From Sipunculus nudus (taxonomy: Eukaryota; Annelida; Sipuncula; Golfingiida; Sipunculidae), in assembly GCA_026874595.1 (NCBI GenBank), contig CM049315.1:68705916-68769915 (forward strand): a DNA stretch of 64,000 bases, given 5' to 3'. The notes under the pieces are model-generated. The model made no database searches. It was not told the origin of the DNA and saw only the letters and a list, made by a program, of their open reading frames with translations. Below, in pieces: positions 5,805-49,730 of the stretch. Made by a program: the position numbers and the translations under genes. Position 1 is the stretch's first letter, and the number at the start of each line of letters is the position of its first letter.

Positions 5805-6742
5805 CTAATTCAGTGCCCACACACAGGTGGACTCATGTATTAGAAAATGAATAATGGTCTCCAAGAACTTCGTGTGCACTAACCACAAAGATTAGTGATG
5901 TTTTATTTGTTAGATAAAGGTAACCAAGGGTTTTCATAGGTGATATCACCAGGGACAGTGCGCGACCGCGGGAAGTATTGGGGCGACCCCTGTTGGTCGG
6001 ATTGGGGATCAAGTTACAAGTGACTTGTGTGTGCAAACACCTGGCCAACAATTCCTATATTAGGTGTTAGTAAATCTAGACTAAGAACGCAGTAGAACCA
6101 AAATGTAATTTGCGTAAGTTTATTATTTTTCTGTTTCATACTGTTAGTAAATGCCATATATACTCACATTTTCGGTCAGGATTTGTGCAACAAAAGCAAT
6201 TGTCATTTAAATAATTTCTTGAATCTTATCTCCTTCTTTTACTTTCTTATTTAAATAGTTTTATGCATTTTTAATAGTTATTCAGGTGCTATACAGCAGC
6301 AGTTAAAATGAAAATAATGGTGTCAGGAGCGTTGTGATCTATAGTCGTCATACCACATTAACTGTCACTACCAATTCCTGGTATTGTAATTTCTTTTTTT
6401 TTTTTTACACTGCTAGGTAAACTGATTGACAGTTGACAAGGTATTATCATTAATTATAATTATAAACAAGATCAGTATATCTTAGATAAGGTCTGTGATA
6501 CTACCTTGTCTTTGGAGTATATAACCTATGTGGTTGTGTTCTCCAAGGAGCTGTTGTTTTGTACCACACTCACTAACAAACATGTGGGTGCAGCAGATCT
6601 CCAATGTACATTTGTTGTTTGGTTCAGTTAGGTTAATACTCATGATTGGATGGGGTCATTTAGCGGTGGGGGTAGGTCAGGAAGAGATTTTTTTTGTTGT
6701 ATTTAGTTATTTCACTCCACATAATATTTACTATGTTGTTAC

Positions 6743-9700
6743 ATGTTTTGTATGTCAAACACAACACTTAAGCTTTTAAGTTTAAATGTTCGGGGTCTCA
6801 ATAACCAACTGAAAAGAAGGTCAGTATTTAGATGGGCAAAAAAAGAATATTGTGATGTACTTCTTCTGCAGGAAACTCATAGTTGTAAAAAAATAGAAAG
6901 TATCTGGAGGAGTGAGTGGCGCGGACAGGTTTTTTACTCGCATGGATCTTCAAATAGTAGGGGAACAGCAATATTGATGAGACAGCAATTAAACACAGAT
7001 TGTGTCAAGTTATTATATAGCTCTAAAGATGGTAGAATTTTGGCTATAAAACTGATAATAGAACAAACTTGTTATGTAATTATGAATGTTTATGCTCCTA
7101 ACTATACTTCAAATCAAATTTCTTTCTTAAAGAATCTCAATAGAATCTTGCAAGAATATGTTTCACTAAATGACATACTTTTCATTGGAGGTGATTTTAA
7201 TGTAGCTCTCAATATAGATTTAGATAGGAGAGGTGGTGCTTTATGTTTAAAAGACTGTGTAAGGAAAGCTGTAAAGAAAATAATGAATCAATATAATTTA
7301 TTGGATATTTGGCGCACAAGGAATCCATTTAAAAGGGAATACACTTGGAGAACAAAAAGTGAAAGCATATCATCCAGGTTAGATTATTGGCTTATAACAG
7401 AACAGTTTCAGGATTATGTAGTAGATGCAGATTTATTCCCATATATCAAATCTGATCATTCCTTTATAAAGTTGGTTATATGCACCGATCTCCTTCACTC
7501 TACAAGGGGTAAAGGATATTGGAAATTAAATAAGTTTTTACTAGAGGATGACCAAATAATCATAGATTTAACTGAATCCATACATACCTGTTTGGAAGAA
7601 TAGAATGATAACAAAGATTATATTAAAATATGGGAGTATATAAAATATAAAGTAAGAAATCTATTTATCAGAAAAGGTAAAGAAGCAAAAAAGTGTTCAA
7701 AAGCAAGAGAAGATGACTTATTGGATCAGTTAAGAAATCTTCAAAATAACTTAGTAAATTTAGATGCAGAGAGTGAAAAGAGAAAAATGGAAAATATACA
7801 AAAAATAAAAGCTGAGTTGGAGGAGATAGATAATCATAAAACACAAGGACTGATACTGAGATCAAAGGTCAGGTGGTTCGAGAAAGGAGAAAAGAGTAGT
7901 AAATATTTTTATAACTTAGAAAAGCATAATGCAGTCAGAAAATGGGTGAGAAAATTAAAAAAGGAAGATGGAGAATTTACTGTTAATCCAAGTGAGATAA
8001 TAAGTTTGGAAAAAGAATTTTATTGTAAGCTGTACTCATCAAATTATAAAAAGTCACTTGAACAAATTGAAGAATATTTGTCAGATATTAAGACTCCACT
8101 ATTATCACAAGAAGAAAATAATTTTCTGTGTAAACGAATTACCATTAGATGAATTATATAATACAGTTAAATCATTTCAAAATAATAAAAGCCCTGGAAA
8201 TGATGATTTGCCTATTGAATTCTATATGAAATTTTGGCCACAAGTAGGTCCTCTGTTAGTGAAATCTTTCAATAAGTCATTTGAGGAGGGTATACGTTCA
8301 GTATCCCAGAGGCAAGCAGTTATAACTTTATTAGATAATAATAAAGACCGTACCTTGTTAAAAAATTGGCGGCCAATATCACTCTTAAATACAGACTATA
8401 AAATTTTATCCAAAACACTTTCTGTTAGACTTTCCAAGCTTTTGCCAAGAATTATACATTCTAATCAGACTGGTTATGTGAAAAATAGATTCATTGGTGA
8501 AAATGTCAGATTTGTTCAAGATTACTGGATTACACAAAAGAAAAGAAAATTCCTGGTATGGTAATTGCATTAGATATGGAAAAAGCCTTTGATTCTTTAG
8601 AATGGACCTTCATGCTGGAAACACTGAAAAAATTTAAAATTAGAGAAACTTTTTTATCTTGGATAAAGCTGTTATACAATGATATAAGCAGTTGTATAAT
8701 TAATAATGGTATAACATCTGGCTATTTTAAAGTTGAAAGGGGTGTCCGACAAGGAGACCCTCTGTCTCCCTACCTTTTTATATTAGCTATAGAAGTTCTA
8801 GCAATTAAAATAAGAAATGATACAGCAATTAAAGGAATTAGAATAGGGGATGAACAAGTTAAACTTCTACAATATGCAGATGATACAATTGCAATTCTTT
8901 CAGATAAAATATCAGGTAGTAACATTTTTAAAACATGATAAATTATTTGGAGAATTTAGTGGACTGAAATTAAATTTAGAAAAATCAGAAGGCATGTGGA
9001 TAGGCAAAAATAAAAATAGTAAGTTGAAACCATTTGGTATTAACTGGCCAGATAAACCAACAAAATTTCTTGGAGTATTTATATCATATGATAAACATAA
9101 ATGTGAAGAGCTAAATTTAGAGGATAAATTAAAACAAACTGAAAAGACTTTGCAGCTCTGGAATCAAAGAAATTTAACAATGCAAGGAAAAATTCAAATA
9201 ATAAAAACATATGTAATATCTAAATTTAATTATTACTTTAGTAATAATAGTATATCAGAAAAATACGTAAATAAACTTAATAAAATTATATTTTCCTTTT
9301 TATGGAATGGTGGGAAAGAGAGAATAAAAAGATCTGTCTTAGTGCAAGAAATAGAAAAAGGAGGTTTGAATGTTCCACACCTTCAGTCACTCTTTTTGGC
9401 ATCAAGGGTGGGCTGGATTAAAAGATTTTTTGAGTGTGAAAACAGACCCTGGAAAGCTTTATGGATTTATAATCTGGAGAAAATTTGTAGAGATATGGAC
9501 ATGTTATTTAATTGTAATTATGAACCTAGCTTATTAAACTTAGAAAATGTTAATAAATTTTATAGAGAGGTCCTACACAGCTGGTACCTCTTAAAGTTAG
9601 ACTTCTATGCAGAGGTGAACATAAAAGAACAGTATGTGTGGCATAACAAGCACTTTATCTTAAATAAGAATACATTCTATTGGGAATCATTTTATAAAGT

Positions 9701-10550
9701 AGGAATACAAAAGGTACAGGATTTATTTGATGTACAGAATCATGTCCTATCTTTTGAGTACTGGAAATCTAGAGGGTTAAAAAGTGTATATTTTATTGAC
9801 TGGTACAATCTAATTTCATTAGCCATAAAACAATGTAAAGTGACTCATGATCAGATAAGTACAATTGTGAAAGGAGACAACGTGGAGTCTGTTAATCATA
9901 TATTAAATAGTTTACAAATTAAAATCCAGAAATCTATTGTGCCATTAAGTAAGTTAAAGTCACATCAGATCTACCAGGTATTAAGAGATAGGATATGTTC
10001 TGTACAACTGACTAAGCCGAAGATATCAAAATATATAACCAATACATCAGAAGATGTATTTATACTTTACCACACAGAGTTTTGTATGATACTAAATCTA
10101 GGATATTTCAATAAATTTCTTAATAATATTTTAGTAAACAATTATTGGCTCATGAAATGGAAAATTCAAGATTTTGATTATTGTACGTTTTGTGAAGGAG
10201 AAGTGGAAACAATTAACCATTTGTTTTGGGATTGTAAGATAACTAGGAAATTTTGGATGGAGTTGAAGACTTGGTGTACCGATCAGTTAATGGAATTTAT
10301 ACTTGATAAGGAAAATGTCTTTTATGGTTCTGCTAAGGATAGTGATATGTATAATGTAATTGTCATACAGGCTAAAAGGTACATTGACCAGTGCAGAAGC
10401 AATAAACAGAAGCTGAATGTTCATAGATTTCAAAACTTTTTATGGGAATATGTAAGAATTGAATATAAAATAGCAGAAAAGAATAAGAAATTAGAATACT
10501 TTAAAAAACGATGGTCATTGTATTTAATTAATCATGAAATGAAATGTTAG
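6743..10550 (+). pseudogene. L1-like ORF2: endonuclease plus reverse transcriptase
   Basis: The N-terminal part is an APE-type endonuclease: LNVRGLNN, LLLQETH, VYAPN, IGGDFN, SRLDYW and SDHSF. A TAG at 7601-7603 breaks the frame, which then continues through a coiled linker. Frameshifts lie near 8125, 8550 and 8930. The reverse transcriptase has NWRPISLLNTDYKILSK, the catalytic ALDMEKAFDSLEW, GVRQGDPLSPYLFILA and the QYADDTIA active site. The last part has a CTFC...H...C zinc knuckle (CTFCEGEVETINHLFWDC), as in L1/Tx1-type LINEs. Length (~1,270 codons) is normal for the family. All catalytic motifs are visible even though the frame is broken, so the copy is fairly young. Confidence 0.9.
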
Positions 10551-19400: not shown

Positions 19401-22400
19401 TTAGCAGGGACAAGATTGGGACGAATCGACTGAGATAATTCGCCTTTCCAAGAAGTGGTTGTACCTCACTGATGTTTTTGGGTGGTATTATTCATTTGAT
19501 ATAGTCAACTTTGATATGCCAATACACCTTTGTCAGATATGTAGTGCCCAAAGAATTTGATCTTGTTCTGGATTACTGTACATTACTCTGGCTTAAGTCT
19601 GAGTCCGACCTGTTGTGTACGCTGTAACACATATAAAGGTTTCTGGCATGGTCCTCTTCAGTCTTTCCAAACACAACTATGTCATCAGCAATTCCAATAA
19701 CGCCAGGCAGATTGTCGAATGTCTTTTGGAAAATGTCCTGAGCTGAAACTAGGCCAAAGGGAAGTCTTTTGAAGCAGTACCGTCCGTATGGAGTATTGAA
19801 TGTCGTCAGCAATTAAGAGTCTTCATCGCGTTTAATGTTCCTGTATCCAGATCTAGCATCTAGTATGCTGAATATCTTTGCACCTGCGAGTTTTGGCAGT
19901 ACGTCGTCAAGGGTCGGTGTGTAGTGGTGTTCTCGTCTGACTCAATTGTTTAGTTCACGGGAATCTAAGCATATCCTGAGATCGCCATTCGGCTTTTTGA
20001 CATATACCAAGGAGATTAAAGACTGGAGTATCAAGTGAGAGTCCGGCCGTGTCGAATGTTGCTGACGGGGGTCATAAAACTCGCTGCTCAAAGGCACGCT
20101 GATATGCTGCTGATAACCCCGGCGCTAATTCATACAGCGCGAGAGACCCCCCTTCGGCGTGACTTCGTAACATCTCGGTAATTCCCGGCTGCGGTAAACA
20201 TGGGCAATAATACGAGAACAACGCCGTCAGTGACAGAGTGGGCGATGGCTCACTATTATCCATCAAAATGAAGTCATCCGTTCATAAACCTCAAAATATT
20301 TAGTTATCGACGGAACGGAATGCTATAATACAAGGCTAATTATAAATATGTGTCAGAAGGTTGGGAACTGATGTAATTTTTAATAATTCCGAAGTTATTC
20401 AGGGAAAATAAGGTTTACTTTTACCAGTCGTCCGTCATTAATCACGGCAGAAGTTGATGCAGATGCCCGCATCTATCCAAAATCGATCCAGTGATTTCTC
20501 AACACGAGACTTCTCTAGATATATTTGTAACGCACAATTCTTGACAAAACAAACCATTTTTGTATTTATAATTCCGGTCAATGTCATTCCAGTGATATGC
20601 CGCTCAGTTACTGGATATATCGCTCTCCGCTTCAGCGGGCTACAGCGGACCGCGTAAGTAACATCTAGCAGACTCGCTTTATCAAAGGCCGTGCCGCCGC
20701 TGCGCCTGACCGCTGCACAAAAGGCGCACAATAGAGTTAATGGGCTTATCAGGTCTTAATTGCAATTAGCGCACCACTGACACTCGGGACTTCTGACAGT
20801 TGATACTCCAGTCTGTAATCTCCTTGCATATACTAAGCTTTTGACCCAGTCAGTTGGTCCATCAACCTTTCCAATTATGTCCAAGTCTGTCATTTAGTTC
20901 TTTTCTTAGAGGATCTGTCAGTGCCTCAGGCACACGTCTGGGTGGTTTGATTATAAGTTCGGCGTCTGATTTTTAGCTTTATGTTGTATTCGCCTGGGAA
21001 CAATCCAACCCCTTTAAAACATTCAGGAAATATGTCCATAAAGTCTTTTTCGGGATCACCACTAATACCGTCAAGGTTGTTTTTGAGTTGTCTGGGCTGT
21101 CATTGTGTACCACATATATTTGACCTTGTTCGTGGCATGTTCTACAGTCTTAGTCTGGGAGCCAGTGATGTGAATTTTCAGATTTGTTGCACCCCCCCTA
21201 CAACATTTGACACCATATTTTATCTTATTCTATGGGTTTTTGCGATTAAATGAGCCCAGGTGTCACTTTATAGCTTCACCTTTAAGGAAGTTACAGGACT
21301 CTGAAGTTTGGTAGTCATTTAACAAAAAGAACACTTAAATATGATCAACGCTGGCTTGAGAGTTTTGTTATGTTACATAAATGGTTTAATTTGATTAATC
21401 ATACCTATACTGCCAAAGTCCTAATTATATTTTTTCCTTAAATGTAATATTCGCTTTTTGTTTTGATCATAATTACAAAAAAAAATACAATTTATTGTAC
21501 AAGTTGCCATTAATAAAAAAAGCTGATGATATTCTTCAATTAATAGTGAATGATAGTAAACAATTTCAGATCAATAGTTCATTGGTCAAAACCTATTGTC
21601 TGCATATCAAATGCGACTGGAATTTGTTCGTTAATTCAAAATGTTTCTAGTTTTATATATATTTATATATTCATGGATTTAATTAAAAGAAAGCATTTGA
21701 CAGTGTAAAAGATAGAATCTTGGGCATAGCTGTTGTACAATTCCATACTTACGCGGTAAATGAGACAAGTATTGCAATTAATTAGCACATTCTACATATA
21801 TTCATTTGAAATATCCTTTATTCTATTTGATATACACAAAAACCTGATGAAGGCAGTAAATCTGTCTATGCAAGCCAACAATCTCCTTTGTAAGAAAATT
21901 AAGCCCAAGAAATTCCTTTATTTCAGAATGATCACAAATGTTTTAGCCCAATAATCAATTTGACAAAATTTGTATTACTTGCCAACAAATGAGACTGCTA
22001 TGTCATTTAAATTTGTTAAATCGTTCGTGATATCGACAGATTCTGTTCCTTGATTTTATTCTACAAAAGCTTTTGACAGTGTAATGACCAGGACTAAAAT
22101 TGATCAAAACAACAAATGTTGAACATTCTGAAACATTTACTTAAATTAATCATTTAGGTTTAATGCATATTTGTCAAATTATGGAAATATTTCATGCCAT
22201 TTGCTTGCACTGCTAATTCTGTTTAATCATTATCTTGTACCAGTGCAACCATGTCTATCCAAGTGGATTGCCTGCATGAAAACCTATAACATTAGGTCAG
22301 CTGTCTTTTTCCGCATTGAAGGTGACAGTAGCCTGAATGAGGGGTCGCTTTTTTTTATTTTAAGTTATTTTGCAATTTCAGCATTACTTCGCCGTGACTT

Positions 22401-25400
22401 AAGTAGTTACACATCAAGATCGGTAATCTGTTTGTGGACCGTTCATGAAGATAATTTTAATTCAGGGAAATCATGGTCATTTTTCCTTGAAGCTCTTCCA
22501 TCGAATTATTGCTCTTAGTTTTTTTCTCATTTGCACAAATACAGGTCCCTCTGCTAAATTCCAATAAGGCATTTGATGCGAACAAGGAAAAAAGTTTTTA
22601 GCACCCCCAGCTAAAAGCATGTGGTAAAACATGAATGTTGCAAGCTTTGATAGATAACAAGGCTACACTGAGTAACCGCCACAAGCATGTGATACATTTT
22701 GATACATTGTGCAAGCTGATTTGATTCATAAAAAGTGATTGGATAAATTATTTTTTAAATAAAAGAGAAGAATCATTCTTTTATACAAATAGTCTTGGTA
22801 AGCAATACACAATTTAAGTCCTCTGGCTAGTTGTGATCAAAAGCTTTTTTTGATCCGCCAATTGGTTAACTCTCACATTGAAAGATATGCATTAAAGCAG
22901 ATATATCATTTTGTAATTCCACTGCTATAAAACACTATATCCATTGTAACCAACATGGCAGAATCATCCCTTGAACTTTCAGGTTCCAAAAGTAAGAAAG
23001 CAAAATTTCTTGACATTTCGAAATGTATCTTTTGTCAAACCACATCTAAAGACAAATTATCATGCGCATCAGTCCAAGGAATAGCACGTTTGCGAGAAGT
23101 GACTGCCATTAGACAGGACGAAACATGTAAACGTTTACAAGAACAATGGTCATCGGTAGAAGAATCTGCAAAATGGCATCTGAATTGTTATAAGAAATAC
23201 ACAAGGAAAACAAATGTAGACAGATATTTGCAGAGGCGTCAGCTGCCAATATCAGTGGAGATCAAAGAGGCAGGCCCTTCCTGCTCCAAGGAATATGTTA
23301 CATCTCCAGTCAAAACCAGAAAAACGTCTGGCGTATCCACAGATTGGAGTAAATGTGTAATTTGTCAAAAAACATATAAAAAAGGTGATTCCTCTTTGTC
23401 ACAGATCCTCACTGTTTCCGCGTCGGAATCATTACGGCATGCTGCAGAAACAAAGAAAGACAGAGCAGTTCTCTTACGAATAAGGGGAGAGGACTTGATA
23501 GCTGTAGAAGCTAAATACCACCGTCCGTGTTACATGAATTACACGTCAAAGACAAACTTAATGACAGCACCAGAGAATGACCCACAGGAAGATGATAGTC
23601 AGCATAGGGAAGCATTTGCTGTTCTGTTGAGGGAAATAGATACCAAACTGATGGATCAAAAACAGGCTTTCACCTTGACAAGTTTGCTTGAACGATACAG
23701 GGATATCTTAACAGAAAAAATGCCCGGAGAACAGAAGTACCGGGGTGAAAAATTAAAAAAACAGACTGAAAAAGTATTATTGAGAAAAAATTGTGTTTCA
23801 AGCCCAAGCTGTTCCTAAAAAGTCTGAAAAAGTCTGAAAGTCTGTTTAGCAGCTCTATAACACTAGGTGATGCCGTCCAAGCAGCAAGGCAGCTGAATGA
23901 AGATCTTGAAGACATGAAACTCGAGACCGATATCTTCGGACCACAGGAACATGACAGCACAGAGGACCCTCAACAAATATTATATCATGCTTCACAAATA
24001 CTCCGAACAACCCTTAAAGGTTGCACTGGGATAAAGACTAATCCAGTTCAATGTGATGACATTTCTAATGAGTCTGCACTGGAGATAATTCCAGACAGCT
24101 TGTACAATTTTATATTGTGGTTGCTGGAATCAGACAGGGGTCACAGCAGCCTATCCCTGACAGCAGGCGAAGGCAAGAAAAAAGCAAGCAGTGACCAGAT
24201 TGATAGACAAGTGTTATCCATCAGCCAGGACCTCCTTCATGCTTTCTCAAGGGGCACCACGCGGGCACCAAAACATGTTGGCATAGCCATACTAATACGC
24301 AATATGACTGGAAGCAAACAATTTGTAACTCTTCTGAACAGATTTGGCCACTGTTGTATTTATGATGAGCTTGAGAGAATTGATACTGCTATTGCCAACG
24401 ACCAGCTGAAGAAAGGAGAAGCAAATGATGGTGTGGTACTGCCATCAAACATCATACCAGGATCGTTTGTGCAGGCAGCGACAGATAATGATGATCTCAT
24501 TGAGGAAACCCTTGATGGCAAACAGACTACACATGCGACAACACTAGTGCTTTACCAACGGCAGTCATGTGAGCAAAGAAGAGTCCAGGGGCAATTTGCT
24601 GAGTCAGTTTGTCTTACCAGCACACGTTCAAGATCTCTATCGGGTCAATGTCCAGGACAAGAGATTTTAAACTTCAGTGTGTCCGGCAAGCATCCCAAGG
24701 CCAGCAGATTTGTTGGGGAAAGTCTCTCTGGAATGGTATAGCCAGGCTACCAGGAATGCTGAAGCAAAGAATATTGATGAAGCCTGGATGATTTGTCGAC
24801 TTTGTCCACAAAAGCTATTCCAAGTCAGCCTTCAACCAAAAGCAAATCAGTCAGTACCTGGATGGACCCCTTTCAATGCACTGTTGAGCAGCAAAAATCC
24901 CCCAGTTACCAAAATCGGTTACTGCCCAATGATACCAGAGCCCCAACACAGTATTCGACAGTCTTTACCGTAATGAAAACGGTCCAGACGATGATGAAAT
25001 CACTTGGACAAATGACAACAGTTATCACATTTGATGAAGCCATATATTGTAAGGCAAAGGAAATACAATGGCGCAATCCAGATACTTTCCAAGGCTTTGT
25101 CATAAGATTAGGTGGTTTTCATATGGCCCTCACTTTTCTAGCATCAATTGGAAAGTTGTATGATGAGAGTGGACTTCAAGATATTTTGATAGAATCTGAA
25201 ACATATGGTAGCACAACAGTGCGTCAGCTAATGAAAGGCAAATCATACAACAGGGGAGTTAGAGCTCACAAACTTATGCTGGAAGCAATGATGCGACTGA
25301 GATGGAAGGCAATGGGTGATTGGATGAAAACAAGTGAGGTACATGCAGAATTAACTGACCAGGAAGAACTCATCCAGCTTATTGAGAGATTCTGTGACCT

Positions 25401-28400
25401 GCTTGAGAATGACTATTCAGAAGACATCAATATTGCTTTCCAACAAATTTTGCATAAAATGCCTTTCATCCAAAACATTCAAGATCAGTTTTGCAGGGAA
25501 GGGGAATCATCACTTACCTTCAAATTCGGGAGCAATTATCTTGATATGATATGTTGTCTACTTGCCTTTATAAGGGCAGAGAGAGATGGAGATTGGGCCC
25601 TTCACCTAGAGTGTGTTGCAAAGATGATACCATATTTCTTTGCAGCCGATAGAATTAACTATGCACGCTAGGCCTGCGTTTATTTGGCAGATATGCAAAG
25701 GCTGGATGTTACTGCTCCAGATGTGTATGAACAATTCTGTCAGGGAAATCATCCTGTTAAAAGGTCACGCCAACGATTTAACCAAGTCTGGAGTGACATG
25801 GCATTAGAGCAAAGTGTTAACAGGGACAGCAAAACAAAGGGAGGTATAATTGGAATCAGTATGCACCCAGGAGCGCTTAACAGGTGGTTCTTGACAGCTC
25901 ATGAGAGAGCTGCTGCTACATCAGCCATAAAAGTGATGGCAGGACTCAAAGAGAAAAGTGATCTTGGAAAACACAGCCACAAGGAACTGGGCTCTAAGCG
26001 AAAAATGAGAGATGAACATGATATCCAAAAAATAGTGGACACAATTAAAGGCCAAATGATTAATCCATTCATACTTGTTCAACCAGCGGAACAGCTGTGT
26101 AACATTGCCACAGGTGTCATTGCACCAGATACAACAGCAAAAGACTTGACATCTTCTTTTCTCATTGGACAAAAGGCAATGAATGTATTTGTGGAAGACA
26201 GATTGAAAACAGGAAAAGTTCCATTCTTTGACCCGATTCGTAAACTAAATATTCAGAAGTTTTCAAATGTAAGTGCCAAGAAGAGTAAAAAGGACAGTTC
26301 AACCGCTATGAAGCTTGCTTCGGTGAATGAGGACAGAGAACTTTTCAGCCGAATAGTAGTTGTTGCAAAAACAAGAAATGTTGACCTGAAACAAGTTTTT
26401 GTACACGAGCTCTCATCAGTGCCATATTCATTGGCACATGCGGATGAAAGACTAAGGAAGGCTACTAAGAGCACACTTTTAGGAGAGTTAGAAAGAGAGG
26501 TTTCAATGCACTGTGATATGCCTAATACAGGATCAACCACCTGGATTATCGATGGGATGGCCATTCTTCAGATGGTAGGATCTCGAGGAGCAGTCAACTT
26601 TGGACAGCTCAGTAAAAATATATTGCAGCTGATAATGAAGCCATTCAAGTGTACAGCATGCAAACGTTTAGATGTTGTATTTGATGCATATAACACAGAG
26701 CACTCGATAAAGAGTTTCGAGAGAGCAAGACGCCAAACATCTGACAGCATTGAAATGTGTATTTACAGCAAAGATACCCCACTCCCAAAGGATTGGAAGC
26801 GCTTTATGTGCAGTCCCAAGAATAAAGCTGCTCTTACATCATTCCTCTCTGAGAACTGGTGTGTGGCTGCCCCTGAGTTGATGAAAGAAGGTCAAGTTTT
26901 GATACTTGCTGGTGGTTTCAGTGACCCCACACAGTCAAGGGCATTGACAACGAGAGAGGTCAGAACCCTTGCTCACCTATGCAGCACACAGGAAGAAGCT
27001 GACACAAGGATACTTTTGCATTCAGCAGATGCGGCAATTGGCTCAAATACTATTGTAGTGTGGTCACCTGACACAGATGTGGCTATCCTTTGCATACACT
27101 TTGTCAGAAGCCTGAATGTGCAGATCTGGTTCAAAACAGGGGTCAAGGACAAGCCTAGATTCATTCCCATCCATGAAATAGCAGGCAAACTGGGTGACGA
27201 GATCAGTCAACTTCTACCAGGGCTCCATGCCCTAACGGGTTGTGACTCAACAAGTGGACTTTTCTCAGTTGGCAAAGTAAAACCCCTGAAATGGGCAAGG
27301 CAAAATATTCAACAAGCACTTCCTCTGAGGGAACTTGGATCATCAAGGAGTGTTACAGAGGCTGCAGAACATGCCTGCTTTTTGCTAGTGTGTCAGATGT
27401 ATGACAAAAAGTGCTGCAATGAAGATGTCAATGGTCTGAGGTACCGACTTTTTTGTCGGAAGCGAGCCAAAAATGAAGATTTGCCCCCCACATCTGACAG
27501 CCTCAGATGTCATATTGCTAGAGCAAACTACCAGTGCCTCATTTGGCGACATGCACTGGATGCGGAGGCAACGATTCCGTCTCCAGCCGGAAATGGATGG
27601 GAGATATGTGATGGGAATATTCAGCCTGTACTCATGACACTTGACCCAGCACCGAGAGCACTTATGGAAGTCATCACTTGCAACTGCAAAACTTCACACT
27701 GCTGAGGGCGCTGCAGCTGCTCTTCGGAGGGTCTTATTTGTACTGCAGCATGTGGTTGTGAAGGTGAAGAAAATTGTCAAAATCCTCATCGTAGTCAGCG
27801 CAGGCTTATAAGTGACTCTGATTCTTCAGATCAGGGGTAACATGGAGTTTAAGTTACCTGAGGTGTTTTGCTTAGATTATATTCCTGTACTCCAGGTAAA
27901 GTGCACGTGTTAAGATATTTCATTATATTAGAGAATCTTGCTGTGCTAAGGTTCAGCAATATTTGTAACACTTGATCCATTATATTCTCTCAAGTGTGTT
28001 GCAAAGAAATGTTTATTACCTCTGTTAAATGAAGAGTAATTGAAAGAAATTAAAATAAAAAGCATAAAAAATGTAAGACAACTACATTGTTTTAGCACGA
28101 AGTGTAGGAAAAAAAGTAAAAAAAAATTAAAAAAAAATGAAAAAAATATGTTTATTGTTTGTTTAGTAATGTTAAAACATTCTGCAAAAATGTTAATTTG
28201 CTTTTGTGCCAATTTCAGTTTTTTTTTTTTAACTGAAATGGCTTACGTGATATTTAACATGCTGTATCGTTATTAGCTCCAGCCAAAAATAGATCATTGT
28301 ATAAAAATTACTCTAACTTCCTTAAAAGTGTCGATAGAAAGCGACACCCGGCCTCATATGAAAGCTGAGAATCAGCTCTATCAAATGGTACCATCAAACT

Positions 28401-31400
28401 AATGTTGTGGGGGGGGGGGGTGTGCAACAAACTCTTATTTTAAGGCCCCTTCTGGTATCTGGCTCCCAGACTATCTCGTTCGTCTTCACAGTTCAGCTGG
28501 ATTAGTCCGAGGTTCACGCATGATCTTAGGCCTAAGATTGCTGGACCTTCAGCCTCAGTTACATGAAAATCAATGGTGAGTGTCTTGTCTTGGTGTGAGC
28601 ATTGAAGTTCACATCGTCCATGTTGTTTTATCTGTGTCCCACCATAGGCGAGAAGCTTGACCTTTGGTGTTTGTACCCCAGCAGGTTGCCCGTTGCTTGT
28701 CAGTTGGTTTGGAAATAGCACTTTATACAGTCTTGCTGGCGTGATGTTTGACCGTGCCCCAGTAACGAGTTTACATCTCACAGCAAAGGTTCCTTTTTCT
28801 GTATTAATGTCGATATTTGCAAATACCTGATCACGAGGCCCCCCTTTGAATATGGTCTGTATTGTAATACCTTGCAATGCCAGTGAGCTAGAGCATTATT
28901 CATTATTCCCAATGTGCTCAACATCAATAGTGTCAAAAACAAATTCCTTAAAGTCTTCATTAATTTGTTCAGTGTCGTCTTATTCATTAGCAATTTCATG
29001 CACCCTCCTGTCAGAAGAACGTGGCTGTCTTTGTGTCTGTCCATACTGTCTAGGTCTAGATTGTGACCCCAGTCTGTCGGTTTGATACCTCATTTATAAT
29101 TGGGTTTGCTGATGTTTTTTGATAAACACATTTTGCCCCAGTGACCTAATTTACCACACTCATCACATGTGGATCTTGCTGCTGGGCACCTAGCCCCACG
29201 TGGATGTCCTTGTCCACGATTACAGCACTGTCCTGTCTTGTGTGGTGCTGGTTTGTCTAAAAAAATGTTTTGTGGATTGACTATTGTCCCGTCTGCTTTG
29301 AATCAGATGTACCTTTTTGTGTACTTAACATCATTCATTTGTATTTGTGTAGCCTCATATGAGCTGACTATACCCAATGCACTGTCAAGTGTAAGCGATT
29401 CGTCTTTAGAAATTAATTTTCTTTGTACATCGTTATTTCTGACCCCAGCTATTAGAGCGTCTAAAAGTTGCTCTTCAGTGTCTGTGTAAAGGCAGTCATC
29501 AGCTAGAATTATAGCTTTCGTTATGAAAGCATCAACTGTCTCAACAGCCTCTTGTTTTAAAGCACGAAACTGAAACCTGGCAACTCAAAAATTTGATTTT
29601 GGCTTTACATAGTCCCAAAATCATTTCCAGTGCATGTCTAGTTTCTTTTGCTGTGAATCTGTAAGTTTCTAACTATTCCTGATGTCTCGGCCTTCCTCGC
29701 CTACCCATAGCATTAGATACTGTACTTTAACAAGTTCTGACTTCTCTGCAAGTGGTCCATTGATTATAAATTCTAATATTTGTTTAAACTTTCTGAATTC
29801 TTCTGCAAGGTTAGGTGCTTTCCAGTCTAATGATGGTATGGGTACACCTGAAAGCTCAGCCATTGTTATTCAAGTAAATATTTCAAGTACAAACAGTTAC
29901 ATGCAAGATACAATTTCCTGTGATTAAAAAAAGTTATATAGTCCTTTATCTCTTGTAATCCAAAATACAAAGTTCAATGAATATAGTTCACAGCAACTGA
30001 AGATAGGTAATCCAAGGAAGATTGGTCCATGAATGTATTCATAATAGCTGTATATTTCGCTGTTCCTTTATTCAGTGAAACAGGTGCTTGTCTCACATGC
30101 TGGTCTCATGATCTTGATCTTGTGTTATTGTTGTTGTGGATGGGTTAAAGTTCTTGACCTGACACACTTGTTAAATAGTCCTTTATCTCTGGTAATCCAA
30201 AACACAAAGTTCTATGAATATAGTTCACAGCAACTGAAGATAGGTAATCCAAGGAAGATTGGTCCATGAATGTATTCACAATAGCCGTATATTTCGTTGT
30301 ACCTTTATTCAATGAAACAGGGGCTTGTCTCACATGCTGGTCTAATGTTCTTGATCCTGTGTTATTGTTGATGTGGATGGGTTAAAGTTCCTGACCTGTC
30401 ACACTTGTTGTTAGTTGCTACCCCTTGTCCCTGTTTGTCCAGAAAAGGAAGCGGGGAGTTTGACCTTCAGGTCAGCTTAGCTGTTTCTGGAACAGGGTTG
30501 TAGGAGGCTGGTGTCACTGACTGGTAAGTAATTTTAGGAATGTCTACTATATGCTGTGCTTTGTCACAGAGCATGTGGCCTGATAACATTGACCAACCTG
30601 TTTTATTTTAGTCTTTCATTTACTTGAAAAGTTTACAGATTGTATGTTTGGCGTACATTTGACTGTAGAAAGTATTTTGGAACATACATACAAATCTGCT
30701 GTTGTCTCTCAGTTTTGACTTCTTGTACCCAGCCACAATGTATTTAATCCTTTGCATTCCAGTCTACTGAATATTCGCTTATTACTTTGTCCATAGGATC
30801 AATAATCTGTGCTGAACCACATGTTTTATGGTGAGTAGCACTTCTGACATCATGTTATGTTATGTTCCAATGAATAAATAATCCAGATGGTGTATATGTC
30901 TGTATTTATTATATCTGACACCGGATACATATAAGCACTTGTAAACACGACTGTCCAGTCGGACGGTGTAGCATAGACTGCCCCTACAGTACTTGGTCAG
31001 TGACTAATGTAACAGATACACATGCATGAGGTTGTGGTATATGCATGAGGTCATATTATAACAACAGGCACTACTATACAATATGGACACAATCAAACTA
31101 TTAGAAGTAAAAAAGAGAAGGAATTAATGGGAATATCTTAGACCCAGTGGAACTCTGGCAGGAAGGTAGAAGGGACGTAGTACTAATTTAAAATCTGCAT
31201 TTTCATCCATGTCAATGCTCGTAACGTAGGACACAGTGTGACTTACATGGTCATTGTCGGAGTACTAGGAGGCCTTACAGTTGGAAATCGAGGAAACTAG
31301 GGCTTCTTTTTTAAGTAGTTTTGGATAGAAAAATTACTGATTATTTATTCTAACATCTCTTAACCATGACACAAAAAGTTATTCTTTCATCAAAGACCCA

Positions 31401-41966: not shown

Positions 41967-44620
41967 TTGAATAAGCAGGTCATACAGGTTAATATAATTC
42001 CAGCAATTTTAACAGATCATTCGGCAGTGAAATGTAATATGAAATCACCCAGTGTTTGCAAACATGGCCCGTCCTTCTGGAAATTAAATGTGTCCCTCAT
42101 GGAAGATCCAGTTTTTTGTGTCACCAATGCAAGAAAACATAAAAAAAGTAGAAGGAGCATTATGAAAATAAAAATAGGGAGACAGAATGGTGGGAATATC
42201 TAAAGTTAAAAATTAGAGAATATTCAATTTCATATTCAAATAGAAAATGTAGACGTAAAAAGCTAATACTGAAAAAAAACCTAGAGAAAAGTTTTAAGGA
42301 TGTAAAATTCAACTCGCACAGCAGTAATAATCAAACTGAGATCGATCAAATATGTCGAGAAATAGATAAGCATTGTGAGAGAAAAGTAGATGGCTCCATT
42401 ATAAGATCTAGAATCACATGGTTTGAGGAAGGGGAGCGTAATTCAAAGTATTTTATGAATCTGGGAAAGAAAAAACAAAACCAAAACTACCATAAGAAGA
42501 TTATTGTGTAATGGAAAAAATATAACAGATCAGCGAAAAATTATGATAGAACTGAAGAGGTTTTTATGAAGAAAAGTACACTTGTACAGGTACCTTTTCA
42601 AAACAAGAATGTTCACAACTTCTGTCAGAGTATGATACTCGAGTCCTATCAGATATGCAAGCAGCTAGTTGTGATGGACTGATTTAAAAAAAGAAGTCTT
42701 GTCAACGTTGAAATAAATGAAAAAAAATATTAAAACTCCCGGGAATGATGGATTTCCAAAAGAATTTTTTTATCTCGTCGGGAAGGATCTCGTTAATTGT
42801 TTGCCCAGATGTTTTGAGGAGGGTAAGCTAACTACAAGTCAAAGGCAAGCAGTGGTTAATTTGATAGAAAAACTAGTTAATGATAATCGTTTAATCTCAT
42901 CATGGCGACCAATTAGTTTGTTAAATGTCGAATATAAGATATTAAGTAAAATTTTAGCACGGCGCTTAAATGTTGTCCTTCCTAATCTGATTAATGAGGA
43001 CCAGACGGACTTTGTACCCGGGGGAACCATTTGTGAAACGAACCATTTAATCTGTGATATCTTAGATTATTGTATCAAAGAAAATAAACCTGATATCTTG
43101 TTTGCAGTTGATTTTTCTGCTGCTTTCGACTCCATAGATCGTAACTATATGTTCAGTGTTTTGGAAAATGTTGTCTTCCAGACAGGTTTTATTAAATGGG
43201 TACAACTTCTTCATAACGATATCAAAAGCTGTATAATAAATAATGGATACCCCACAGGATATATCGGATTAGCAAAAGGTAACAGACAAGGAGATCCCTG
43301 GCGTCATATTTGTTTGTCATGGCCATTGAGATCCTAGCAATAATGGTACGTAAATCTGTGTCTATCAAAGGGATAAATATTAACTGCTTTGAAATTAAAC
43401 AGTGTATGTATGCATACGATACCACATTTTTGGCAACAACGGTGGCTTGAGGCTGCTTGATATTGATACAATAATAGAAACTCAAAGATTTATGTGAATA
43501 AAGAAAATCATCACAGGTGACACGACAATACACATAATAATACCTGATCTTTATTTAAAACTCGTAGGTGGATTTAATAGTATCAGAGGTAACTTGGATC
43601 CTGAAATTTTAAAAATAGGAATATTATCTTTTTATTTACGTTGCCTTAATGTATGGCACTCTGTTACCTCCGGGGAACCATTAAGTAAAGAAACAATCTT
43701 GACACAACTGCTACCGAATAACAGATACATCAAGAAAGCAGGTTAATCAGTGTATTATTATTTTCTTGATATTCTTGGTATAAAATATGTTCCTGTTGTG
43801 TACGATGACAGAGGAAAAAAAAGTTAATGAAGTTGTAGCAAAAACAGTTATGCTTACAACACATTCTATATCCACTGGATAGCTCCGCAAAGGGCTATTC
43901 CACGAAAATGGTTTCAGGATAATGATTTAAACAGATATTTTGAGGTTAATAGTGCTTCGGTATTAAATAATGTAGTTATATCCTACAATGACGTGGTTCT
44001 AGATTTAGACAAACTCATATTCAGAAGTGTCTACGACAAAATAATATCATGTAAAATTTCTGAACCTGTCTTCAAAATAAAGTTACCAAACCTTTATAAA
44101 GACCTAAACTTGAAACGAGCAATTAATTACTCTTACAAGACCACTCTGTACATGTATCTAGGGAAATTTCAGTTCAGAGTTCTGCATATCATCCTCGCTG
44201 TTAACGAAAATCTATTCAGATGGAGGATAACAGACACAAACAGATATTCTAATTGGTTAATTGAAAATGAACCTATTGATCATTTATTCTGTGATTTCAC
44301 ATTTCATAAAACTGTTACTTGCAAATTTTGTCTTGGGCAAAAAACTTTGGATTAGAGATGCCAAGCCTCGGTCGTCAACGTTTATACACTGGAGCAGAAA
44401 AATCAGAAAATGATGCCCTTGTAAATATGTTGATGTTGGTCTACAAGATCAGCGTTTAAGTAATAGGAATAATCTGGCACTTCTTTCATTGGATCAGTAT
44501 GAGACAAAACTGACGAGATTTGAATATCTTGAACGCAAACTGGCGGAAAAAAGGCACAAAAGTACTATATATGAAATAAAATGGAAACCAATTCCTCAAA
44601 CTATACTAAACAAGAAGTGA
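41967..44620 (+). pseudogene. 5'-truncated L1-like ORF2, heavily decayed
   Basis: It begins inside the endonuclease (PAILTDHSAVK, the S-D-H block) and continues through the linker to the reverse transcriptase: NIKTPGNDGFPKEFF, SSWRPISLLNVEYKILSK, FAVDFSAAFDSIDR, GNRQGDP. The active site reads YAYDT in place of YADDT. The frame breaks at the QGDP block and several times after it. The C-terminal part includes DHLFCDF, and the last piece ends near 44620. This is a different L1 lineage from the one at 4885. Confidence 0.85.
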
Positions 44621-46226: not shown

Positions 46227-46942
46227 TACCAGCTAATTCTCTGACTGTTAACCCTTCCTATTCCACCAACTGAAATTTCAAATTGTCATCAGCTACAGAA
46301 TGTAACATTTGGTCCATAACCAGTTTATCAAATATAGCTGTGACTTCCTCATCTTCCATTAATCTATCACTAGGTTGTACCCCCATTCCTAAATTTAAGG
46401 CGCTAAGCACTAGGAGTTAATTGATATCTGTGCAAGATAGCATGGATCACTTTATCATAATCCCTTTGTTCTTTCTGGGAAAGTGGATGGAAGGCCTGCT
46501 GAGCATTTCCAGTAAGATATGGTTCTAAATAATGACTCCATTCACTTTTAGGAATTTGATATCTATCGACCAAATTCTCAAAAGTTTTGATCCAATAGTG
46601 GATATCATCTCTACCTGTCAGTTTAGTCATTTCTTTGATCTTAACATGGGATTGACTACCTGCTTGTTTAACCATCATCTTCTCAAGAAGATTAATAAAT
46701 CTATCATTATCCTCTTTCCTATGCTTTTCCATCTCACTAAGGACAGACTGGAAAGAAACATCTGACATACCCTTAAGAGATACTCCAGGCTCTTTCATGT
46801 CAGGAATCTCTACTAAAGCATCTATATGCTCTTCCTTAGTATTCAAATCAGACAATTCTAAATGATTATGTTCACACAATTGAACAATATAAACTTTAGT
46901 ATATCTACGCAAAATAGCTTTCTTTTCATCTCTTGAAGCCAT
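46227..46942 (-). pseudogene. Gypsy B gag, capsid part
   Basis: It starts MASRDEKKAILRRYTKVYIV at 46942. It is an acidic helical region followed by KMTGRDDIHYWIKTFEN-type capsid sequence (LTGRDDIHYWIKTFENLVDR, YLTGNAQQAF, YDKVIHAILHRYQL). After the stop at 46403 it continues in another frame with LVMDQMLHSVADDNLKFQLV and LTVRELAGIADDH, the SCAN-like gag end. Confidence 0.8.
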
Positions 46943-46981
46943 GATGACATTTAAAAGAAATCAACTATTATTAGTACGGAA

Positions 46982-47786
46982 TTACCTTCTTTTATTTCTA
47001 AGGATAAATGGCTCACTATCTTTTAGCTGCCGCCCAGAAGACAGTTCACCAGAACCACATGAGCTATAGCTGCTGGATGCCGCCAAGGCCCCGAATGGGT
47101 CTCCCAAGAAATAATGACACGCCAGCAATCCCACTAATAATAAGGAACATATTGTGAGGAGTATCACTGCCTCTTAAAATCCCATTCCTGCTCTTCCTCA
47201 GAACTAGAACATTTATTGTTCTTAATTGGCAAGCACGGGTGAGTTTATTAAAGATCTTTCGCTTTAACACCTCCCCTGGATGTACCCCATCCCTCAACAA
47301 TGAGAAATTTACCTTTCTGACTACCTTCTCATAAGACTTCCCTGGCTTGCCTCTTTTCTTGATGGAAGGGCGTGTTATGTCTTTAATGGAATTGGCAAAA
47401 ATAAAACCGGACTGACGGGCTTGAGAGGTAATGAAATGATTGATAGTGAGTATATCCAAATCTAGAGTTTTTTGCTGGACTTCAAATTGAGCATCAGTAG
47501 AATTTAGTAAACTGAGCTTTCCAGTTTGGACATTATGTTGACAGGCAGACTTAATATTGACGGGAAGAATGGTGTTCCAAATGATAAAATAGCCATGTTT
47601 TTTGACATAAGAGTTGATATCACTAACAAGATTCTGTACACGTGTAAGTCTATGAGGGTCAGGATTGTATATAATTTCTATGCCATTGGGGAGTAGTTCT
47701 CTTGTTGACGAAATCACAAATACCAGCAGAAAAAATAATAGTAAATTCCGTTTTTGTATTAGAATGTGTACGACCCCGAAGTTCAT
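46982..47786 (-). pseudogene. Extra ORF of gypsy B before gag, SGNH-like
   Basis: The start is MNFGVVHILIQ at 47786. It has a hydrophobic N-terminal segment (LLLFFLLVFVISS), then GIEIIYNPDPHRLTRVQ, YFIIWNTILPVNIKSA, LDLDILTINHFI and SLLRDGVHPGEVLKRKI. The last block resembles the catalytic D-G-x-H-P (block V) of SGNH/GDSL hydrolases. The block I serine motif is not seen, so only the C-terminal half may be present. Near 47170 a second frame takes over, with a second hydrophobic stretch (ICSLLLVGLLACHYFLG) and the end RNKRR at 46982, so a frameshift is likely. It sits between leader and gag. The role is unknown. Confidence 0.5.
47425..47466. repeat. 42-bp direct repeat, source copy inside the SGNH-like ORF
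   Basis: GAGGTAATGAAATGATTGAT...TCTAGA is identical to 48024-48065. Here it codes part of the ORF (LDILTINHFIT). Confidence 0.9.
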
Positions 47787-48023
47787 GGAACAAAGAATTC
47801 AAAGTAGCCCCGCCCCTACACACTTCAACAACGGAATCCTCAGGCGAGAGCCGCGCATTTGCCCGAAAGTAGTCGGCTAATCCCCTCCCCCTAGAATCAG
47901 AGAGGAACAGAAAGTGGACATGGAGGGACGAGAAAACAACCAGAAATCAGAGAGAACGACAAAAACACCCGAAGACAGGCCAAAAAGGAAACTAACTAGA
48001 AAACAGAGGAAAATCACTTAGCT

Positions 48024-48065
48024 GAGGTAATGAAATGATTGATAGTGAGTATATCCAAATCTAGA
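48024..48065. repeat. 42-bp direct repeat, copy in the gypsy B leader
   Basis: Identical to 47425-47466 but placed in the non-coding leader near the primer-binding site. This looks like a templated insertion. Confidence 0.9.
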
Positions 48066-48180
48066 TAAACAACAGGAAAAGGAAGTAACAAGAAACAGAG
48101 AATGATGGGAAAAAAAACCGGAATCCAAAGGTGTTACCTCAAAAGCACATGGCATCTCCAAGTGAGTCGGCAGCCGGCGA

Positions 48181-48192
48181 CGTTGGGCGCCA
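48181..48192 (-). promoter_or_regulatory. tRNA primer-binding site of gypsy B
   Basis: The minus strand reads TGGCGCCCAACG four bases inside the LTR, a typical PBS beginning TGG. The exact tRNA is not assigned. Confidence 0.7.
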
Positions 48193-48196
48193 TTTA

Positions 48197-48518
48197 TGTA
48201 GTGGTGATCTTGTTGCCACAGATAACGAACTCCAGCAACGGTTTAGAGATGTTTTATTCGCCCCGGCTCGAGTACCAACTGACTAACATGTCCACAAAAA
48301 CTTGGGACATTAACTACGCGCATGCGCACTAGCTATAACAATAAACAAAAGAACATGTGACATTTAAGCCGCTGTTAACCCTGCTCTACCAGTTTCGATG
48401 AACACAGTCCTACCACTACACTGCCGGTAGATGTCGCTATCAGCAGAACACGAAATAATTCACTGGTTTACATGTTAATACTACTGTTTGACTCTAGATG
48501 TCGCCACAATTCATTACA
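48197..48518 (-). repeat. 5' LTR of gypsy B (single LTR seen)
   Basis: On the minus strand it runs from TGTAATGAATTGTGG to GATCACCACTACA, giving TG...CA ends. It contains GCGAATAAAACATC (AATAAA polyadenylation signal) near 48260. It is followed after four bases by a primer-binding site, which fixes its inner border. The outer border is inferred from the TG terminus alone. Confidence 0.7.
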
Positions 48519-49730
48519 TAGTCTCTCCTAGCCATAATAAATTTAACTCGTCACGAATTCCAGAATATAAGACGGGGGCCAGACTGTTCTAATTGTCACT
48601 CTCCGCCTTGGTGACAAGTCTTGGAAGTAGAGAGAATTCAGCGGGAGAACCACGTGTCATCTGTTGACGGAAGAGGCTTAGTGACAGCTGCGTTTGGCAT
48701 AATCTGCCCATGTTACGGTATCTAGGCATCGTTGATAGGGACCTGTTTGCCGTTAATTTTCAGCCGGCCGTGCCAGAACCGTACTTTTTGTTTGTCCGTG
48801 AATGCCTGTCTGATTTGTGGCCCGGCTTTCTTCTTCAAATAATAATCTTCCCTGACCAAGTCTTCTACAAAGTGTGCGGCGTTTCCGTCCTCTTGACCTC
48901 GTTTCTCTCTTTGTGTTTTTAGTAGTGTGTTTCGTACCGGTCTTGCATAGAATCTCTCTATAATATGTCTATGGCCCTCAGATTTTTGTTTACCGGTTCT
49001 ATGAGCGTTTTCAATAGCTTCCAGCCCATTAATTGTTTCAAAATCATCATTCAGGAGTTTTTCGTTAACAATATGCTCTGTCACAATCTTTTTACAGTCC
49101 TCCTGTTTTTGTTCTGGGATCCCAATGAGTCTCAAGTTAAACTCCCGGCTAAAAGTTTCCGAGTCCAATAACTTTTCCTTTAATGAAGAAATCTGCTGAT
49201 TTTTCTCATTGTTTTCTGATTTCAGTTCATTTACTTCAGATTTCAGAGCTTTATTTTCTGCTTCAATTTTTGCCAATTTAGTCACTGTTTCTTTAAGGTC
49301 AGCCTGTGTAAATTCAAGACTTTTCACTACAGATTCAACTTTTGAGTTCAGTGAAGCATAATTAGTTTCTGCTTTCTAGACCACTTCTAATATGTGAAAT
49401 CCCTTCACCAAGTGATGTTTTAAAGTCATTCAAAGCAGTCTGCATTACCTCTTGAAGTTGGGTGCACTTAGCATCTACAACGTCCATTATTGAACCACTT
49501 GCGTTAGAGGACCCTGGTTCTCGCCCGTTTTTCTGTGAAGGGTTGGACTTTTTCTGCCCTTGTTTTAAATATTTCTCCATACTTGGTTGCTCCAAAGATG
49601 ACATATCACTTTTGCTTATTGACCGTGTAGTAATTTGAGACACCTGTGACATATCCAGTGAGATACTAATTTACTGAGAGAGCACATGAAAGTGTGTCCA
49701 CTCATTCGGCCATATTGAACCGGATGTCTC
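48519..49730 (-). mobile_element. L1-like element, 5' half only
   Basis: The minus strand starts GAGACATCCGG at 49730, the same terminus as the L1-like element at 4885. It then has a ~78-base leader, ORF1 (49652-48722) and ~200 bases of inter-ORF sequence, and is cut at 48518 by the gypsy B LTR. No ORF2 of this orientation lies on the other side, so the rest was lost. The leader is part of the segmental duplication and is also seen at 79-1. Confidence 0.75.
48722..49652 (-). pseudogene. L1-like ORF1, nearly complete, one frameshift
   Basis: The start is MSQVSQITTRSISKSDMSSL at 49652. The N-terminal part has a low-complexity region and coiled coil. One frameshift lies near 49370. It then has a clear leucine/lysine heptad coiled coil (IEAENKALKSEVNELKSEN), the RRM-like REFNLRLIGIPEQKQ, AHRTGKQKSEGHRHIIERF, ARPVRNTLLKTQREKRG and the C-terminal VREDYYLKKKAGPQIRQAF. 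These are the L1 ORF1p blocks. It ends at 48722 with VPINDA. Confidence 0.85.

Follow-up and report, generated by a model that had tools for sequence, protein, structure and literature searches.

A probable AcademX-type DNA transposon of Sipunculus nudus pairing a likely DDE core with a FEN1-like nuclease in one protein

The stretch of DNA analysed here, the window, is 64 kb of the Sipunculus nudus genome (1.43 Gb in 153 contigs), at G000:C10:68705916-68769915. It holds a 7.3-kb element (21151-28473, plus strand) that is very probably a dead copy of a cut-and-paste DNA transposon of the AcademX type, whose single protein would combine a DDE transposase core with a FEN-like nuclease. The element is recognised as a broken AcademX-like transposon by its terminal inverted repeats (TIRs), a 3-bp target-site duplication (TSD) and empty sites. 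The two enzymes are read from the conservation of catalytic-type residues among relatives in the same genome and, for the nuclease, from profile comparison.

Ends, target site and other copies

The left TIR (21151-21296, 146 bp) and the right TIR (28311-28473, 163 bp, minus strand) are imperfect, and their local alignment scores 54.5, the best score among 300 random window pairs being 27.5. The first-pass annotation of the window, which had described a DNA transposon with imperfect TIRs of ~150 bp, was right on this point. The element tips are TAGTCTGGGAGCCAG...CTGGCTCCCAGACTA, and TCT borders them on both sides as the TSD (21148-21150 and 28474-28476, read from the flanks and given no strand). 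The sequence around the element is itself a repeat with 16 matches in the genome, the window's own among them. In five of the seven other copies of this flanking repeat (L110, L111, L112, L114 and L115) the site is empty and the repeat runs through with a single TCT (...CTACAG, then TCT...), so the insertion duplicated 3 bp. The left flank is not kept in the remaining two (L113 and L116). L110 and L111 may be one duplicated copy, since their letters at the site are identical and both lie inside the C10 duplications. The same annotation had placed the insertion in a gypsy pol region with an empty site. The empty site was recovered; the gypsy pol label has as its basis a reading of the translation together with the repetition, and the 151-amino acid open reading frame (ORF) of the flank has no Pfam match at E 0.01. 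On C10 the insertion is accompanied, at a distance of 39-42 kb, by an empty copy of the flanking repeat, and this pair is present three times (68.73-68.81, 69.12-69.17 and 69.20-69.29 Mb), a recurrence that suggests recent segmental duplication.

A genome search with the first 1,000 bases of the element returned at least 31 matches. The copies at C10:69.20 Mb and C10:69.12 Mb are near-identical to the window copy and have both flanks in common with it, and the three are therefore counted as one insertion. A C4 copy (97%) is an independent insertion with the TSD AAT, and a C6 derivative shortened to 1,195 bp (L098 1501-2695, G000:C6:76907843-76909037) keeps both ends and has the TSD ATA. At one end of these two copies the outermost base is A, not T, and their TSDs assume that the element ends at that base. 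The exact tip matches 14 places in the genome, nine in copies of the window family and five as single ends on C1, C8, C11, C14 and C16. A diverged family (L077, L078, L082 and L083) has GGACTA ends beside four different flanks; in three of its members the TIRs are ~138 bp long and 72-74% identical, and the TSDs are TAA, TTT and GTA. All six independent insertions for which both ends could be read thus have a 3-bp TSD (TCT, AAT and ATA, with TAA, TTT and GTA). TA was rejected as the TSD because it stays at the element end beside all four flanks of the GGACTA family. In a second diverged group (L068, L069, L070 and L084), known from its right end only, that end is ...GGTCTA.

A single gene with two sets of catalytic-type residues

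The element carries a single intronless gene on the plus strand (22955-27840), with a possible start ATG at 22955 and the last stop at 27838-27840. In the window copy it is broken into ORF pieces at 22931-23818, 23770-24741, 24671-24973, 24781-25671 and 25672-27705, with a tail to 27840. Two in-frame stops interrupt it (25669 and 27703), with a probable third at 24668, and the frame changes three times, within 23770-23818, 24560-24741 and 24781-24973. That the gene is intronless is shown by the relative L093, in which everything from the first Cys/His module through the CXC tail is read without a stop, over 1,471 codons in a single frame. The single intronless gene of ~1,600 codons described at first pass is thus borne out, broken as the window copy itself is.

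The protein likely spans ~1,630 codons and, as judged from its sequence, comprises two N-terminal zinc-like modules, a likely DDE core, a FEN1/EXO1-like nuclease and a CXC-type tail. The two CxxC...HxxC modules (23024-23188, probably zinc-binding, and 23354-23530) have the same arrangement in L092 and L093, and the start of the second resembles the first in its DNA (80% over 30 nucleotides). They had been described as lying on either side of the nuclease; both are N-terminal instead. The CXC-like tail (27685-27777) had been correctly noticed, its cysteines being mostly conserved wherever the aligned rows reach, with the Pfam TCR/CXC model at just E 0.16. Pfam, NCBIfam and PHROGs searched with the separate frames gave no XPG or PIN match, and among their weak matches only DUF6589 and CXC fit. 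The read-through protein of 24781-27840, P0001, found nothing relevant in the PDB by phmmer, and no relative appeared when viral contigs were scanned with the protein pieces or phage records were searched with P0001 by tblastn.

Relatives come from the same genome, in which tblastn of P0001 gave at least 61 matches (45 of 966 candidates were scored). Leaving aside one decayed copy (52%) and the members of the window's family, they are 27-37% identical to P0001, and nine other families have open frames of at least 560 codons. Conservation in the nuclease region was read from an alignment of P0001 with 18 open frames of at least 560 amino acids, shorter pieces being excluded; 17 rows cover the region and represent 10 families at 80% identity. 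Between recent copies, the ratio of nonsynonymous to synonymous substitution rates (dN/dS) is 0.49-0.76 for whole compared frames and 0.40-0.80 for nuclease regions. Other segments exceed 1 (1.94 and 1.15) or are undefined on few changes, and these mixed values therefore show only weak purifying selection.

The region 26458-27390 is supported as a FEN1/XPG-like (PIN-type) nuclease by the family profile and by conservation, as had been proposed for the 25684 frame. Exactly seven of the 32 acidic residues in P0001 560-870 form columns conserved as acidic across the 10 families: D591, D635, E739, D741, D764, D766 and D822. They are the seven residues singled out at first pass (D290, D334, E438, D440, D463, D465 and D521 of the 25684 frame), found as expected at 26551, 26683, 26995, 27001, 27070, 27076 and 27244. 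D591 (26551-26553) is FEN1 D34-like and D635 (26683-26685) FEN1 D86-like, each in 17 of 17 rows. The E-A-D motif at 26995-27003 (E739 and D741, FEN1 E158/E160-like) has Glu or Asp at its first position and Asp at its last in all 17 rows, and both Asp residues of D-T-D at 27070-27078 (D764 and D766, FEN1 D179/D181-like) are equally constant. The Asp of G-C-D (D822, 16 of 17 rows) and a G-K hairpin (G and K, 16 of 16) at 27244-27276 resemble FEN1 D233 and its helix-three-turn-helix. Two columns show exceptions: at 739 two families have Asp, not Glu, and at 822 L086 has Ser, near which its frame appears disturbed. The second Asp is followed by a Lys (K644, 16 of 17 rows) and, seven residues on, an Arg (R651, 17 of 17), close to the position of FEN1 K93/R100.

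Compared by hhalign, the family profile scores 37.6 against a FEN1 profile (P 2.4e-4, probability 43%). No column permutation out of 200 comes up to this (the best scores 28.0), reversal of the alignment gives 13.3, and for segments that lie mostly beyond the nuclease the FEN1 score is at most 18.3. The alignment places D635, D764, D766 and D822 on FEN1 D86, D179, D181 and D233. It misses E739 by two residues and does not reach D591, and the FEN1 assignments of these two rest on order and conservation. In a profile search of 177,635 PDB sequences, EXO1 ranks first at E 0.029, with unrelated proteins from E 0.46. The EXO1 match is built of two stretches, one after the second Asp and the other at the GCD...GxG hairpin; D635, D822 and the G-x-G-K hairpin are aligned to both FEN1 and EXO1. 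Run singly against Pfam, the 17 members give weak matches only. These include two PIN-like models, NYN_YacP (0.0089) and PIN_4 (0.074), each matched by two members, alongside unrelated models whose E-values are as good or better.

Further upstream in the protein, D 24484, D 25033 and E 25807 are likely to be the DDE triad. The first candidate catalytic Asp (24484-24486) opens a DNxD motif (D in 27 of 27, N in 27 of 27 and D in 28 of 28 rows), with counts that come from iterated profile searches upstream and include several rows that are copies of one family. The second candidate Asp (P0001 D85, 25033-25035) is kept in all 11 rows that have a letter there, eight of 19 having none, and is followed by an invariant His (H114, 25120-25122, 11 of 11 rows with a letter). 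The candidate catalytic Glu (E343, 25807-25809) is kept in every one of the 13 rows that have a letter there, six of 19 having none, and D339 (window 25795) is likewise invariant in 13 of 13. A separate alignment of five relatives agrees with the invariance of D85, H114, D339 and E343. The first-pass annotation had recognised no DDE motif in the middle region, a lack that the invariance of these residues in the aligned relatives does not support. Their order of D, D, a long insertion and E agrees with that of DDE transposases which, like hAT, contain a large insert. Pfam DUF6589 covers the transposase region weakly (E 1.5e-4 and 21.1 bits, with a cut-off of 27, for the window piece) and reaches E 0.028 or better in four of eight relatives, two of the four from one family. 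No mention of DUF6589 was found in the literature searched on these elements. In L069 (G000:C16:33.33 Mb), a unit of ~25 amino acids upstream of the first candidate catalytic Asp stands in tandem, with at least six repeats, and L068 shows this in part.

The two residue sets bear on which enzyme would carry out recombination. One alternative is that the FEN-like domain is the main recombinase and the DDE-like residues are structural. In its favour, the acidic set of the nuclease is kept no less well than the DDE set, and in more rows. However, DNxD (27 of 27), D85 (11 of 11) and E343 (13 of 13) are invariant in relatives mostly 27-37% identical to the window protein. A fixed 3-bp stagger is moreover the outcome of DDE strand transfer, whereas flap nucleases do not join strands, and this alternative is highly improbable. 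The first-pass annotation had the nuclease drive the cycle, perhaps with a second catalytic module. The candidate triad would supply that module, and since its residues are invariant in relatives, the nuclease need not drive the cycle alone.

Several results weigh against the reading of a DDE core joined to a FEN-like nuclease. The EXO1 value of E 0.029 belongs to the whole chain, and neither of its stretches passes alone. No Pfam XPG or PIN model matches the window protein. A FEN1 hidden Markov model built from 21 sequences scores the window sequence alone like shuffles, which is not significant, although the model does align in register over the GCD/GxGK motif. The score of a motif-chain position-specific scoring matrix is equalled by 31 of 2000 shuffles, and only two of its five blocks (D-x-D and GCD/GxGK) fall on the seven-acid residues. 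An unrelated ORF, one of the eight others in the window of at least 200 amino acids, scores 19.6 in this motif chain, as against 18.7. The transposase profile matches no solved transposase in the PDB, and the triad rests on conservation and order. Lastly, the role of the nuclease is one that we infer.

A proposed cycle and the role of the nuclease

To our knowledge, cleavage of the non-transferred strand by eukaryotic DDE transposons is understood for few superfamilies. In the cycle proposed here, the zinc-like modules and the CXC tail would bind and hold the DNA ends. Nicking of the 3' ends and their joining to target strands, with a stagger of 3 bp, would fall to the DDE core. Cleavage of the 5' strand would be left to the FEN-like domain, which could act at the donor junction or on a 5' flap once strand transfer has taken place. 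Its most natural substrate would be the 5' flap of donor DNA left after strand transfer, and this cut would free the element from the donor. That the FEN/EXO1-like domain is a dedicated second-strand nuclease, leaving the DDE core with only 3'-end nicks and strand transfer and itself cutting the 5' strand of the branched intermediate that these produce, is a tentative proposal to which we give somewhat less than an even chance. If true, the element would be a eukaryotic one-polypeptide counterpart of TnsA+TnsB, in which a repair-type nuclease replaces hairpin formation or double DDE cleavage.

The main rival to this proposal is that the nuclease is a passenger that acts elsewhere, in host repair or at replication forks, while excision and insertion would proceed without it. 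Accessory enzymes do vary among related lineages: in the cited passages, Kolobok elements carry several unrelated nucleases or a helicase (PMC9587614), and AcademH has a helicase where AcademX has a nuclease (PMC10045372). Against a passenger role, the nuclease is fused in the same protein and keeps its acidic set in the 10 sampled families, only L086 being without one Asp in an apparently disturbed frame. Such a role seems unlikely, if far from negligible. With both sets of catalytic-type residues kept in a single polypeptide throughout ten families, point mutants could test the division of labour between a DDE core and a second-strand nuclease. The element also has clean ends and target sites, which helps in classifying related repeats.

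Elsewhere in the window, the remains of a non-LTR (long terminal repeat) retrotransposon lie at 6725-10550, with an Exo_endo_phos endonuclease (E 3.6e-14) and then a frame with zf-RVT (E 8.4e-7). A reverse transcriptase fragment lies at 42717-43334 (RVT_1, E 3.3e-15). Minus-strand ORFs at 46403-49375 are perhaps further retroelements, with weak matches to DUF1759 (E 9.6e-5) and to an L1 RBD-like model (E 1.7e-4) that fall a little short of the Pfam cut-offs. At 29933-30409, a 237-bp unit is present in two tandem copies with 93% matches.

Comparison with known systems

The nuclease region resembles FEN1, EXO1 and XPG (Rad2) in having the seven acids in order, the D-x-D pair, and the G-x-D followed by a G-x-G-K hairpin. 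Unlike them, it does not stand at a protein N-terminus but ~1,170 residues inside a transposase. Compared with FEN1, the Lys/Arg pair comes one or two residues later, and in the ungapped EXO1 alignment it is one residue off. In the bacterial transposon Tn7, TnsA and TnsB divide the work, with one enzyme for the 3' ends and another for the 5' strands; TnsA is restriction-enzyme-like. The likeness of the window element to TnsA+TnsB is one of functional model only.

Among eukaryotic elements, the Kolobok lineages (KolobokE, D and P) are likewise DDD/E transposons with an added nuclease. In the cited passages they differ from the window element in having other nuclease types and generally TTAA TSDs, and the KolobokP nuclease is a separate protein encoded on the other strand (PMC9587614). 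Academ is listed among the DDD/E superfamilies in the same source (PMC9587614). According to the passage in PMC10045372, AcademX has TSDs of 3 or 4 bp and AcademH of 9 or 10 bp, which is linked there to a nuclease in the former and a helicase in the latter. Academ elements are reported in the cited text as expanded in bivalves, with a mean curated length of 5,565 bp (PMC10294476), and Academ-1 is listed for the hard clam in a table of PMC8905726. No mechanistic study was found in the Academ and XPG literature as judged by titles and the beginnings of abstracts.

Like AcademH in its published outline, the window element would represent an Academ lineage that pairs an accessory enzyme with a transposase; it differs in having a nuclease, not a helicase, and TSDs of 3 bp, not 9-10 bp. 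It resembles AcademX, whose nuclease we take to be XPG-like, as the first-pass annotation also had it (the cited passage says only 'nuclease'), in two respects. Its TIRs are accompanied by a 3-bp TSD that lies within the 3-4 bp of AcademX in six of six insertions. It appears to encode a nuclease, by profile-profile comparison and conservation. As to the DDD/E character given for Academ, the element has a candidate triad, an invariant D, D and E in order, with no match to a solved transposase. Another superfamily, outside Academ, could have acquired an XPG-like nuclease independently, and the placement with AcademX does rest on a published description of features, the only Pfam link of the transposase part being the weak DUF6589 match. 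Such an origin is nonetheless improbable, as a DDE transposase, a nuclease and a 3-bp TSD are together the published AcademX combination. The element is placed with AcademX because the combination found is that one. Elements joining a transposase and a nuclease have already been described as AcademX, and the window element is a further example, set there by that description.

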